A stretch of DNA of 59,639 nucleotides from Chthoniobacterales bacterium. Lineage in GTDB: Bacteria; Verrucomicrobiota; Verrucomicrobiia; Chthoniobacterales; JAATET01. Under the pieces are notes generated by a model. That model saw only the letters and a program-made list of their open reading frames with translations. It searched no databases and was not told where the DNA came from. Where the stretch lies: positions 1 to 59,639 of the forward strand of contig DATCRI010000064.1 in the NCBI GenBank assembly GCA_036569045.1, given 5' to 3'. Positions 3,781-43,487 of this stretch are shown piece after piece; the stretch's first letter is position 1, and each line of letters begins with the position of its first letter. The position numbers and the translations under genes are program-made.

Positions 3781-4902
3781 GTGCGAATCGGGGACGTGAG
3801 CGATGTTGTCAGTGAGGCGGCGGGATCGGGGTTGTTGCATCCGGAGGCGTCGGCGCGTGAAGCTGGGTTGCGTTACGTCAGCGACGAAAATCCGGGGATT
3901 CATCGGAAACCGGCGAAGCAAGAATTTGCCTATGTCGATGCGGCAGGCCGACGGGTGAAGGATCCCGGGGAATTGCGGCGCATTCGCGCCCTCGTGATCC
4001 CTCCGGCATGGACGGATGTCTGGATCTGCCCTCGCGCAAATGGCCATATCCAGGCGACCGGTCGGGACGCCCGCGGGCGCAAGCAATACCGCTACCATCC
4101 CAGGTGGCGCGAGGTGCGCGACGGCGTGAAGTATGAGCGGATGCTGGATTTCGTGCGGGCGCTTCCGCGAATCCGGCGTCGCGTGGAGCGGGATCTCGGC
4201 CGGCGCACGCTCGATCGGGAAAAGGTGCTCGCCACGGTGGTGCGATTGCTGGAGCTGACGCTGATCCGCGTTGGCAATGAGGATTATGCGAGGACCAACC
4301 AATCGTTTGGGCTGAGCACGATGCGGAACCGGCATGTCGACGTGAGGGGAACGACGATCCACTTTCGCTTCCGCGGCAAGGCCGGGAAGAAGCACGCGAT
4401 CCGGCTCGCCGATCGCCGACTCGCGCGAGTGGTCGCGCGCTTGCAGGACCTGCCTGGGCAGCGCCTCTTCCAGTTCGAGGCGGAGGATGGTGCGCTGCAG
4501 GATGTGGAATCCGGCGACGTGAATGCGTATCTGCGGGAGATCAGCGGAGAGGATTTCACCGCGAAGGATTTTCGCACCTGGGCGGGCACCGTGCTCGCGG
4601 CGATGGCGCTGCACGAGCTGCGGGAATTCGACAGTGATGCGCAGGCGAAGCGGAACATCATCGCCGCGATCGAGCGCGCCGCTTCGCAGCTGGGGAACAC
4701 TCCCGCCATTTGTCGCAAGTGCTACGTGCATCCCGGCATCTTCGAGAGCTACCTCGACGGCTCGCTGGCGGAGGTGCTGCGCGAGCGGGTGGAGACGCGA
4801 ATGCGTGAAAAACTGGGAGTGTTGCGACCGGAGGAAGCGGCGGTGCTGGCGTTGCTGCGGCAGCGGCTGGCAAAGCCGCGTCGTCAGTCCAGGCGCACGT
4901 AG
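3781..4902 (+). CDS. DNA topoisomerase IB (bacterial/poxvirus type)
   Basis: Predicted 373 residues, the usual length of bacterial type IB topoisomerases, which relax supercoils through a 3'-phosphotyrosyl intermediate. Visible landmarks: the N-terminal GLRYVSDENPGIHR motif, the IPPAWTDVWICP segment, GRDARGRKQYRYHPRW, and RVGNEDYARTNQSFGLSTMRNRHV in the catalytic domain. The nucleophile is Tyr315 in CRKCYVHPGIFESY. GTG at 3781 is the longest start; a second in-frame GTG at 3796 (MSDVVSEAAG) has a better-placed GGGGA and could be the true one. The last 19 bases overlap the converging phosphodiesterase gene. Confidence 0.92.
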   Translation: MRIGDVSDVVSEAAGSGLLHPEASAREAGLRYVSDENPGIHRKPAKQEFAYVDAAGRRVKDPGELRRIRALVIPPAWTDVWICPRANGHIQATGRDARGRKQYRYHPRWREVRDGVKYERMLDFVRALPRIRRRVERDLGRRTLDREKVLATVVRLLELTLIRVGNEDYARTNQSFGLSTMRNRHVDVRGTTIHFRFRGKAGKKHAIRLADRRLARVVARLQDLPGQRLFQFEAEDGALQDVESGDVNAYLREISGEDFTAKDFRTWAGTVLAAMALHELREFDSDAQAKRNIIAAIERAASQLGNTPAICRKCYVHPGIFESYLDGSLAEVLRERVETRMREKLGVLRPEEAAVLALLRQRLAKPRRQSRRT

Positions 4903-40330: not shown

Positions 40331-40831
40331 CTACGCTGCCTTCGCTCCGGAATCTCCGTCCTCGAGGTCGGCTTGGCGGTCTGCCATATCGTCCGTGAAA
40401 TCGAGCATAATTTGGATCGGCGCTGCTTTGTTGTAGTTTTCGTTGTAGCTGTCCACATCCTGCTTCAATTGCCAGCAATCATCGGCGATTGAGCCGCGTC
40501 GTTGCTGGAAGCTCTCAAACATAAACTGCGGAGGCGCAATTTCGATGTCATACCAAAGGACCATTTGCTTGGAGTTGCCGTTGGCGTCCTTCGATACATG
40601 GCGAACAGAATGCTTCCTTCGAACGCGACGTCCTTTTGAATCGATCGCGTATTGCGTTCGCATGGCATCGCTAATGTCTTCGGAAAGGATGGACATCGCT
40701 TCTTTCAGGGATGGTTCCCATTTACCTGCCCGGATCAAGTAAGCAGCAATCTCTCGGGGATTGAGGGCACCGTCCGCGACTTCGCGGCGGTAGGCCTCTA
40801 TCATCTCTAAAATACGTTTATTATAGCTCAT
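40331..40831 (-). CDS. Partner protein of the XRE-ImmA metallopeptidase (unknown family)
   Basis: Predicted 166 residues, soluble, no signal or metal motif. The N-terminus MSYNKRILEMIEAYRREV and LNPREIAAYLIRAGKWEP look like a helical HTH-like domain; DSKGRRVRRKHSVRHV is strongly basic; then a stretch MVLWYDIEIAPPQFMFESFQQRRGSIADDCWQLKQDVDSYNENYN. It ends acidic (DLEDGDSG). It overlaps the metallopeptidase gene by 11 bases, so the two are one operon. Base composition is near 50 percent GC by eye, lower than the flanks. I recognise no named family; a toxin, substrate or adaptor of the peptidase is possible. Confidence 0.6.
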   Translation of the reverse strand: MSYNKRILEMIEAYRREVADGALNPREIAAYLIRAGKWEPSLKEAMSILSEDISDAMRTQYAIDSKGRRVRRKHSVRHVSKDANGNSKQMVLWYDIEIAPPQFMFESFQQRRGSIADDCWQLKQDVDSYNENYNKAAPIQIMLDFTDDMADRQADLEDGDSGAKAA

Positions 40832-41945
40832 CGCTCTTTAGTTTGACGGTTTTTCCCCAGCCATCGGTTAAGGCGACGGTTGTGAGTATATCTTTAACTT
40901 TAACTAACATCTCGCGGTTTGCGTGCCACCCAACCTCACGGCGATGTTGCAGCTGTCCGTTTACAATTCCAGGGTGAACTCCAAGCCGCTTTGCGAACTG
41001 AACGATTTTAACTTTAGAATAAAAAGGCTTCGTTCGAATGATGAAGGATTCAAGCTTCTCGTTATCGATAAGCCACGCGGACCCCTGCCTATCAGCACGA
41101 TCTTCCATCTCATCCAGAAATTGATTCTTCGTTTCGCCGACGAGATTTGAATCAATGGACTCATGGTCGTTATTCACGATATGAAAGAGTTCGTGCGCAA
41201 GGGTGTGCCAGAACCAATCGATCCGGTCATATCTAAGCGTTAGGACGATCACTGGTTCCGATTTTTCCAACCAAAACATTGCCCCGTCGATTCTCGACTT
41301 TGGCAGTGCTTCAACGATTACCAGCCGCACGCCTAGCTCGGCGAGAAGTCTAGGAACTGCGCCTATCGATTCGAGGGAGCTTGCGGCCTGTCGAATTTCG
41401 GGTAAGGCCGCGACAAATCTGGAATGGTCAAAAGAGCGGACATTCAGGATTTCCGCAAACTGCAACGCTCGCCGCAGCCATGCGGTCTGCGCGCCAGTAA
41501 ATTCAAGCGCGCGCTGCGTCTGCCTCGCGAAGGCGCGAGGCGCAACGATGTCGTTCAGATCGGAAACGCCAAAAAAACGGCATACAGCCGCTTCAGTTTC
41601 AGCCAAGGTGTCGGTGAAAGGGATCCATCCCCTTTTTTCCATCTCCTTGACCGGCGCGATTTCATACAGCTTCGCTTTCCTTCCAGTATCCGAATCTTGG
41701 CTGCGAACTAGGCTAAGGCGAAAGGCCGATTCACGAGCCATCCACTCTTCGGCGGGGATACCAAACGCAGCTGCAAGCGCGATTGCCATTTCAGGAGTAA
41801 TTGCACGTTTCCCTTTGATGACCTCGTTGATTGCAGCGACTGGTCGATTGAGAATTGATGCAAGATCCAATTGAGACCATCCTCGCTTTTCGAGTTCAGT
41901 CTTCAAAAAATCCCCTGGGGGAGCGGATATTTCGGCGGGTTCCAT
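40821..41945 (-). CDS. XRE-family HTH plus ImmA/IrrE-type metallopeptidase
   Basis: Predicted 374 residues. The N-terminal HTH (about 12-70) reads FLKTELEKRGWSQLDLASILNRPVAAINEVIKGKRAITPEMAIALAAAFGI, a HigA-like XRE domain. The C-terminal half is a COG2856-type peptidase with the zinc motif HTLAHELFHIVNND (HExxH, about residues 240-253). Fused XRE-ImmA proteins act as antitoxins, phage/ICE repressor-cleaving proteases or stress sensors. The preferred start is ATG 41945; a GTG at 41969 is possible. A perfect 9-bp palindrome lies about 50 bases upstream. GC is near 50 percent, unlike the neighbours. Confidence 0.88.
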   Translation of the reverse strand: MEPAEISAPPGDFLKTELEKRGWSQLDLASILNRPVAAINEVIKGKRAITPEMAIALAAAFGIPAEEWMARESAFRLSLVRSQDSDTGRKAKLYEIAPVKEMEKRGWIPFTDTLAETEAAVCRFFGVSDLNDIVAPRAFARQTQRALEFTGAQTAWLRRALQFAEILNVRSFDHSRFVAALPEIRQAASSLESIGAVPRLLAELGVRLVIVEALPKSRIDGAMFWLEKSEPVIVLTLRYDRIDWFWHTLAHELFHIVNNDHESIDSNLVGETKNQFLDEMEDRADRQGSAWLIDNEKLESFIIRTKPFYSKVKIVQFAKRLGVHPGIVNGQLQHRREVGWHANREMLVKVKDILTTVALTDGWGKTVKLKSDEL

Positions 41946-41994
41946 GGCAGGCACTTCGCAAGGAACCACAGATCATCGGTGTTGGTCAATTCGT

Positions 41995-42095: not shown

Positions 42096-42782
42096 TTAGC
42101 CGCCGACGGTGATTTCGGCGGGGTCGCTCCATTGGCCGGCCATGGATTCGCCGAGGCGGTAGACGGCGCGGTAGGTCCAGATGGTCGGCGTGGCGGGCGG
42201 GGTGAAGGTGTCCACGTAGTCGGGCTCGGTATCGATGGCGAGGAAGGCGAAGCCGGTGCCGCGGTTGACCTCGATCTCGAGCGCGGTGAAGGGGCCTTTC
42301 TTCCAGCCGATCTCGGGCTGGCCGCCGGCGACGAGGCGCAGGGTGAGCACGGGCTTGGCGGCCTCGGGGTCGAAGGTCTGCTCGGCGCCGATGATGCCGA
42401 GGTCCTGCCCGATGGCGTCGGTGTAGGCGGGGGAGTTCTTGATGCGCTGCACGAGCTGGCCGATCCATTTGAAGATGCCGTAGCCGGGCGCGGGCAGGGC
42501 GGGGGCGGCGCCGATGACGGGGTCCACGGGCAGGACGATGGGGGCGACGACGGCGCCGTCGCGCAGGCGGTTCTTGAAGGCGGTCCATTGCTTGGCGCTG
42601 GTGGCCGTCTGTTCCTGGGTGACGCGGGCCCAGTGGAAGAGGGCGGCGGCATTCTGCACGGCGGTGACGTCCCCGGCGCTGAGCTGCAGGGCGGTCTGGT
42701 AGGCGGGGAGCTTGAGGGCGAAGTTCGTGAGGAAGGCGTCTTTGCCGGCGTCGGTGTCGGGGAGGTAGGGTGAGGTGGCCAT
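42096..42782 (-). CDS. Hypothetical protein with helical N-terminus and Fn3-like C-terminus
   Basis: Predicted 228 residues without signal peptide. Residues 1-125 are helical (LPDTDAGKDAFLTNFALKLPAYQTALQLSAGDVTAVQNAAALFHWA and a WTAFKNRLRDG stretch). Residues 140-228 look like a fibronectin III or related sandwich: PVLTLRLVAGGQPEIGW, FTALEIEVNRGTGFAFLAIDTEPDYVDTF and WTYRAVYRLGESMAGQWSDPAEITV. I know this two-part layout from uncharacterised proteins of Verrucomicrobiota and Bacteroidota. The gene sits downstream of the 21-bp array in the same orientation as its ORF. No function is claimed. Confidence 0.65.
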   Translation of the reverse strand: MATSPYLPDTDAGKDAFLTNFALKLPAYQTALQLSAGDVTAVQNAAALFHWARVTQEQTATSAKQWTAFKNRLRDGAVVAPIVLPVDPVIGAAPALPAPGYGIFKWIGQLVQRIKNSPAYTDAIGQDLGIIGAEQTFDPEAAKPVLTLRLVAGGQPEIGWKKGPFTALEIEVNRGTGFAFLAIDTEPDYVDTFTPPATPTIWTYRAVYRLGESMAGQWSDPAEITVGG

Positions 42783-42839
42783 GGTGTGAGGTGGGTTTTT
42801 TGGGTTTTGGGTTGGGTTTTCTCTGTAAAGGCGGGCTGG

Positions 42840-43160
42840 TCAGCGATCGACCAGCCTTGGTGAGAGGCTGACCAAGGCTGGTCGAGGGCGCACCAGCGCT
42901 GGTGGAAGACTCACCAAGGTTGGTGAAAGGTCGACCAGGGCTGGTCGAGGATTGACCAACGCTGGTGGAAAGCTCACCAGTGCTGGTGAAGGGTTGCCGA
43001 GGGCTGGTGAAAGACTCACCAGCGCTGGTGAGGGACTGCCGAGGGCTGGTGGAGGATCGACCAGGGCTGGTGGGAGGTTGACCAGCGGTGGGCAGTGAGA
43101 AAAAAGCGCCAGTCGAAACACAGAAAAACTCCGTATCAGTGCCGGACGATCACCGGCCAT
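42840..43160 (-). CDS. Possible 106-residue heptapeptide (PALVxxx) repeat protein
   Basis: The minus-strand reading frame through the 21-bp array has no stop and encodes twelve heptads with Pro-Ala-Leu-Val as core, e.g. PALVSLS, PALVNPR, PALGSPS. The N-terminal 28 residues (MAGDRPALIRSFSVFRLALF) are hydrophobic-basic. Changes between units often fall at synonymous positions (GCN for Ala, CTG/TTG for Leu), which supports coding, but the same DNA is palindromic and may be regulatory. Spacing to the next gene (ATG 42782) is 57 bases. No SD is obvious. Confidence 0.4.
   Translation of the reverse strand: MAGDRPALIRSFSVFRLALFSHCPPLVNLPPALVDPPPALGSPSPALVSLSPALGNPSPALVSFPPALVNPRPALVDLSPTLVSLPPALVRPRPALVSLSPRLVDR
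42850..43092. repeat. Array of twelve 21-bp palindromic tandem repeats
   Basis: Units start at 42850, 42871, 42892 and every 21 bases to 43081, with no indel. The core is ACCA-N4-TGGT (often ACCAGCGCTGGT), a 12-bp dyad; the 9-bp linkers are purine-rich. Nine units have both half-sites intact, two have CCGA in place of ACCA, and the last ends TGGG. 42783-42849 and 43093-43161 hold nothing else recognisable. Confidence 0.97.
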
Positions 43161-43161
43161 A

Positions 43162-43183
43162 CGTAAAGCTACGTATTTTTACG
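43162..43183. promoter_or_regulatory. Inverted repeat upstream of the LuxR-type gene
   Basis: CGTAAA (43162-43167) and TTTACG (43178-43183) flank GCTACGTATT; a nested TACGTA-type palindrome overlaps it. It is 44 bases before ATG 43227, and on the other side it touches the start of the heptad ORF at 43160. A binding site for the LuxR-type protein is possible. Confidence 0.4.
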
Positions 43184-43226: not shown

Positions 43227-43487
43227 ATGGGGCAGGGACTTACGAAACGGGAGGAGGAGGTCGTGAAGTGGCTGCGGGAGGGGAAGACGAGCGAGGCGAT
43301 CGGGCAGATCATGGGGATCAGCCCGCGGACGGTGGAGAAGCATTGCGAGCACATCTACGAGAAGCTCGGCGTGGCGAACCGCATCGGCGTCTTCTGGCAT
43401 TTCGTCGATCGCAAGGGCGGCGGCGACGGGGCGCTGGCGCTCCTCGGCCTGGCCCAGATGCTGGGCGGGCTGGCGCTGGGGGCGTAG
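43227..43487 (+). CDS. Small LuxR-type HTH protein (no receiver)
   Basis: Predicted 86 residues. Residues 4-60 form a GerE/LuxR HTH: LTKREEEVVKWLREGKTSEAIGQIMGISPRTVEKHCEHIYEKLGVANRIG. There is no receiver or autoinducer domain; a 25-residue hydrophobic Gly/Leu tail follows (GALALLGLAQMLGGLALGA), which could be a dimer helix or membrane-associated. AAGGGA precedes ATG 43227 by 4-5 bases. It may bind the adjacent inverted repeat or the 21-bp array. Solo LuxR genes of this size are frequent in Verrucomicrobiota. Confidence 0.8.
   Translation: MGQGLTKREEEVVKWLREGKTSEAIGQIMGISPRTVEKHCEHIYEKLGVANRIGVFWHFVDRKGGGDGALALLGLAQMLGGLALGA

Follow-up and report, generated by a model that had tools for sequence, protein, structure and literature searches.

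Tandem 21-bp arrays with dyad symmetry upstream of helical-Fn3 genes in Verrucomicrobiota: putative multi-site operators

Introduction

In type III toxin-antitoxin systems (ToxIN and its relatives) a tandem repeat array lies directly 5' of one gene and is private to that gene, and the operators of LuxR/NarL-type (GerE) regulators are dyadic sites of about 12-20 bp. Another class of repeats, the REP/BIME palindromes with RAYT transposases, is palindromic and intergenic, occurs in Verrucomicrobia and includes solo copies (PMC3733652). Tandem repeats that keep a constant size (20-21 nt) but vary in sequence have been described from Bacillus and a wide range of other bacteria and have no obvious function (Subirana and Messeguer; PMC8161180, PMC6749651); their authors noted that the size equals two helical turns and that the repeats are mostly non-coding (PMC8161180, PMC6749651). 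We found no description in the literature of a link between such arrays and Fn3 genes, and none of the strings 'fibronectin', 'palindrom' and 'upstream' occurs in PMC8161180.

Here we analyse a 21-bp tandem array of a Chthoniobacterales bacterium, located in a stretch of 59,639 nucleotides (contig DATCRI010000064.1, assembly GCA_036569045.1) that we call the window. Judging from comparative sequence data, we suggest that this array acts in cis, as DNA, on the helical-Fn3 gene that lies downstream, and that it is most likely a multi-site operator, a reading to which we give a probability of about 0.45, slightly below even odds.

Results

The array occupies positions 42837-43092 (no strand assigned) and consists of 12 units with a period of 21 bp, each combining a 12-bp core of dyad symmetry, ACCA-N4-TGGT, with 9 bp of spacer; the dyad reaches z = 5.0 against column permutation. 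The 12 full units stand in register at 42850-43092, after a half unit at 42837-42840, with a period of exactly 21 bp and no indels, and Tandem Repeats Finder run on the window calls periods of 21, 42 and 63 bp at 42847-43085. A preliminary description of this DNA had reported twelve exactly spaced units without indel, flanked by an Fn3-like gene and a gene for a GerE-only (LuxR-type) protein, and both points are confirmed by the tandem-repeat call and the in-register reading. It had let the array run from 42840 to 43183; the part at 42850-43092 (with the half unit from about 42837) stands, but the stretch 43093-43183 lies outside the array. Similarly, the core that it saw in every unit is perfect in nine of the 12, but one half has been lost in the units at 42997, 43039 and 43081. 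Outside those nine cores, the 59.6-kb window contains no ACCA-N4-TGGT site. In this genome, a pattern of two such units spaced 21 bp apart is found only in the window array and in a second array on contig C14 (see below), and the same two-unit pattern read backwards, which served as a control, does not occur. At the contig end, positions 1-109 of the window carry a nearly perfect 12-bp tandem repeat (ACCAGAAACAGG).

Between the array and the start codon of the Fn3-like gene lies an A/C-rich leader (42783-42836, minus strand) in which no promoter motif is visible. Leaders throughout the family are likewise A/C-rich, and some are only 33-39 nt long, too short for a promoter, so that the array may be transcribed. 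This counts against an operator, as does the result of scanning the leader and the distal flank of the array with a sigma-70 matrix, which gave no signal on either side.

A minus-strand frame of PALV heptads is indeed open over the array (42840-43160), as first described, and the unit of 21 bp is divisible by three; these two facts speak for a coding heptad repeat, PALVxxx. The length of the frame is explained by the repeat itself, because any frame without stops in a 21-bp unit stays open along the whole array, and frame reading and codon-position tests mark it as a by-product and not a gene. The synonymous differences between units that had hinted at coding do not bear weight, as third-codon-position variation in the window array shows no significant excess (p = 0.28). 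Among 65 arrays of the family no codon-position pattern emerged: imbalance at p<0.05 was seen in 1.5%, the number of open frames per array ranges from 0 to 6 with none constantly open, and in 22 of the 65 stops interrupt the frame in which the neighbouring gene is read. The units at other loci are unrelated and do not code for PALV heptads. We consider a coding repeat almost certainly the wrong explanation.

The gene whose start is preceded by the array (42096-42782, minus strand) is the constant partner of such arrays at homologous loci. It encodes a protein of 228 aa that has no match in Pfam, NCBIfam, PHROG or PADLOC and nothing significant among PDB sequences. The AlphaFold model of this protein (pLDDT 94) consists of an N-terminal helical region and a C-terminal Fn3 domain; the Fn3 fold finds a structural match with Z of about 11, and the N-terminal domain alone finds no fold match in the PDB with Foldseek. 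Homologues are present in 16 of 97 related genomes, with up to 9 copies in each; the number of gene copies per genome ranges from 0 to 10. Plasmids, phages and viral contigs yielded no homologue. We collected 80 named loci, mostly from Verrucomicrobiota MAGs with a few labelled Bacteroidota or Crenothrix, by scanning with a profile of the closer subset of proteins, the full set of 19 being too diverse.

In most of these loci the array stands just 5' of the Fn3-like gene, and its 21 bp make two helical turns whatever the sequence. Within 800 bp 5' of the gene, a period-21 array was found in 51 of 66 homologous loci, mostly of Verrucomicrobiota, compared with 1 of 75 segments immediately downstream, none of 54 taken farther upstream and 1 of 62 taken farther downstream, and any other period was seen in at most 4 loci in the same upstream test. 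The linkage was replicated in loci sampled subsequently across the phylum (8 of 10 non-duplicate loci with a full upstream segment). Such a bias is what we would expect of an operator. Both same-genus copies tested have arrays, with sequences different from that of the window, and a relaxed search of related genomes returned arrays with other cores, one of which adjoins an Fn3-like homologue. Among the loci failing the upstream test, L065, L116 and L117 match the gene only in part, with its true start not located. An exception to the period is found in the culturable Haloferula luteola YC6886 (L066), where it is 22 bp, still two helical turns; the units (GCAACCGCACGGGTTTGCCCCC) lie at L066:3600-3900, from about 400 to about 100 bp upstream of the gene (at 4001).

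Could the array be a neutral minisatellite whose one size is kept by descent and unequal exchange? The arrays of two close relatives, L128 and L130, do differ by exactly one unit. However, the linkage of array and gene persists at only 25-45% protein identity and into Bacteroidota MAGs even as the unit sequence is lost, and dyads recur in unrelated units, so that we regard this explanation as highly improbable.

In the surroundings of 81 loci, out to about 4 kb, no gene family besides the Fn3-like one recurs widely, and the upstream neighbours lie in both orientations. The window array therefore belongs to the Fn3-like gene and has only a loose tie to the LuxR gene; that the loci share no other gene family is a further point in favour of an operator. 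No replication gene is common to the loci and no initiator is found among the window neighbours, which speaks against the replication (iteron) role that had been considered.

The divergent gene that lies beyond the window array (43227-43487, plus strand) encodes a GerE-only, solo LuxR-type regulator (Pfam GerE, E = 5.7e-17) and is a candidate source of the binder. The idea of a LuxR partner finds support in part of the family: small HTH genes of GerE type lie beyond the array at ten Fn3-like genes, the window included, and of XRE type at nine. The count of 19 such genes upstream vs 3 downstream (binomial p = 0.0004), which agrees with an operator, may be biased by HTH profiles that were seeded from upstream genes, and includes loci that did not pass the strict array test. 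About 80% of the loci, however, have no linked HTH gene of either type, an argument against an operator. By Pfam, the window neighbours comprise GerE, DUF2383 and HTH-peptidase proteins, and the DUF2383 gene is absent from same-genus genomes. The neighbour at 40331-41969 (minus strand) encodes a protein with HTH and M78-peptidase-like parts that matches PD-Lambda-2_B of PADLOC (E = 5e-44) and is followed by a 166-aa unknown protein; the two possibly form a PD-Lambda-2-like defence pair.

Several other sequence features were seen at these loci. In about 23 loci (L063, L068, L075, L081, L101, L125 and others) array and Fn3 gene are separated by a short conserved frame, WDxPNLxW...LEPGDPGYVP, located 50-290 bp upstream of the gene. 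Repeats of 8 bp (L056, L064, L079, L082, L085, L097) or 7 bp (L062, L103, L111) are found farther upstream of the 21-bp arrays, and 12-bp tandem repeats just 3' of the Fn3-like gene (L114, L118, L119, L123).

Arrays of different loci resemble each other mainly where the proteins exceed about 80% identity, and array similarity is 0.40 within a genome (paralogues) vs 0.37 between genomes. Each Fn3-like gene copy has its own, unrelated array sequence, paralogues in one genome included. One regulator for all arrays of a genome was rejected on the grounds that paralogue arrays are unrelated, and this same lack of relation suits operators that are specific to each gene.

Most arrays share dyad symmetry. 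A significant dyad, above 95% of column-permuted controls (5% expected), is present in 62% of the 65 arrays, which favours an operator; against it stand arrays without a dyad, for example L068, L114 and L125. The symmetry is strand-neutral: in the dyads, G.T and A.C mismatches are equally depleted (0.79 vs 0.80 of expectation), and folding energy exceeds the controls to a similar degree on the sense (z -3.0) and antisense strand (z -3.2; p = 0.34). A dyad without strand preference suggests action on the DNA and not as sense RNA, and sense-RNA hairpins were rejected as the main form. Changes in the dyads are predominantly single-sided (853, vs 99 compensatory where 64 were expected), which fits independent half-sites bound by a dimer and so supports an operator. 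A few arrays do have clear compensatory changes, such as L013 (GCAATATTGC / ACCAATACTGGT / CCCAATATTGGG). The earlier proposal of operators in helical phase agrees with these results, since 21 bp and dyad symmetry are kept at homologous loci while the sequence has changed wholly.

It is conceivable that the array acts as RNA, either as a repeat-hairpin leader or as a small RNA, binding or controlling its own protein in the manner of type III toxin-antitoxin systems. Its position directly 5' of one gene, its private sequence, the transcription suggested by short leaders and the compensatory changes of arrays such as L013 are compatible with such a role. Yet the sense strand has neither a G.U preference nor extra stability, the stems are only about 4 bp, Rfam families gave chance matches only, and the Fn3-like protein matches no nuclease family, with no Pfam or PADLOC match to an endoribonuclease of ToxN/CptN/TenpN type. 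We therefore think it unlikely that the array functions as RNA.

A structural role has been suggested for 20-21-nt repeats (PMC8161180), and an oligomerising nucleoid-type protein on the repeats, or bent or cruciform DNA, could act without gene-specific regulation. The two-turn period that is kept regardless of sequence and the self-complementarity of the repeats agree with this, but it leaves unexplained why the arrays are so strictly linked to Fn3 genes on their 5' side and why their sequences are private; we take a purely structural role to be distinctly unlikely.

Five period-21 arrays are found in 734 kb of the genome, the window and the C14 stretch included and one contig end of short repeats left out of the count; two of the five form one related pair. 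The C14 array (L011:4692-4956) is paralogous to the window array, at 72% identity and with the boundary CCCGCYTTYACAGAGWAAA in common; no Fn3 gene accompanies it, and its neighbours on the two sides are a convergent RND efflux gene and a DUF885-like gene. The C21 array (L188:9343-9640) is also gene-less and has an alternating 42-bp pattern; it is flanked by a hydrolase-like gene and a DUF2071-like frame (named by eye). A further array, in contrast to the non-coding ones, is a coding 21-bp repeat in a 495-aa minus-strand frame (contig C29, L196:5475-5959).

The gene-less C14 and C21 arrays count against an operator and are an argument for a mobile or selfish palindromic repeat of REP type that spreads with or without the gene, an idea with which the lack of neighbours common to the loci and the varying gene number (0 to 10 per genome) also agree. 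On the other hand, the window array contains no GTAG, CTAC, CGTC or GACG, and no transposase family is linked to the loci, nor is one listed among the Pfam families of the neighbours; there is no plasmid, phage or viral-contig match, and arrays within a genome do not look like recent copies. A mobile repeat is, in our estimate, very unlikely.

The last of the five arrays lies directly upstream of another gene for a helical-plus-Fn3 protein (L185:8044-8673; Pfam fn3). In this second family, with homologues at loci L209-L223, an upstream array is present in 11 of 13 testable homologues and 8 of the 11 arrays are dyadic, a recurrence that strengthens the case for an operator. The family is absent from plasmids. 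The two families have their architecture in common; their profiles match weakly (probability 5-12%), too weakly to show homology.

Discussion

We propose that a two-fold symmetric (dimeric) DNA-binding protein would fill the units of the array next to one another along a single helical face, and that the bound dimer would switch or silence the Fn3-like gene. The first candidate for this binder in the window is the divergent GerE-only protein, and XRE-type proteins may take its place at other loci. Because array sequences are private, binder and array would coevolve in individual pairs. By extension, helical-Fn3 proteins and 21-bp dyad arrays might make up a widespread private-address regulatory module in which the code of each copy is read by its own partner, be it an HTH protein encoded next to it or the product of the gene; this broader proposal we hold to be rather doubtful.

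Bacterial tandem repeats of a kind that had lacked an explanation are now tied to particular genes, on the 5' side of two families of small Fn3 proteins. If the broader proposal is true, constant-size repeats, at any rate those of Verrucomicrobiota and some Bacteroidota, would be control regions of a helical-Fn3 superfamily. The question becomes a testable one: what reads a code with fixed spacing and free letters, and what do these unstudied Fn3 proteins do?

How do these arrays compare with described systems? They share with type III toxin-antitoxin loci a tandem array placed immediately 5' of one gene, but their protein matches no nuclease family and their dyad is strand-neutral; by the protein test they are not members of that class. 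Like GerE operators they are dyadic, and GerE genes adjoin some of them; unlike such operators, the window array is a series of a dozen putative sites in exact two-turn register, with a different sequence at each locus. As with REP/BIME elements, the arrays are palindromic and intergenic and have solo copies, but they possess neither a GTAG/CGTC tag nor a RAYT, recur in tandem at 21 bp and have private sequences, and they are not REP/RAYT elements. The closest likeness in repeat size is to the constant-size repeats of 20-21 nt, which are also mostly non-coding, conserved in size and unrelated in sequence within a genome; the difference is that the arrays described here lie 5' of helical-Fn3 genes and are dyad-symmetric, neither of which is reported for those repeats. 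The present arrays thus fit the description of constant-size repeats and add to it a gene partner, symmetry and gene-by-gene privacy.
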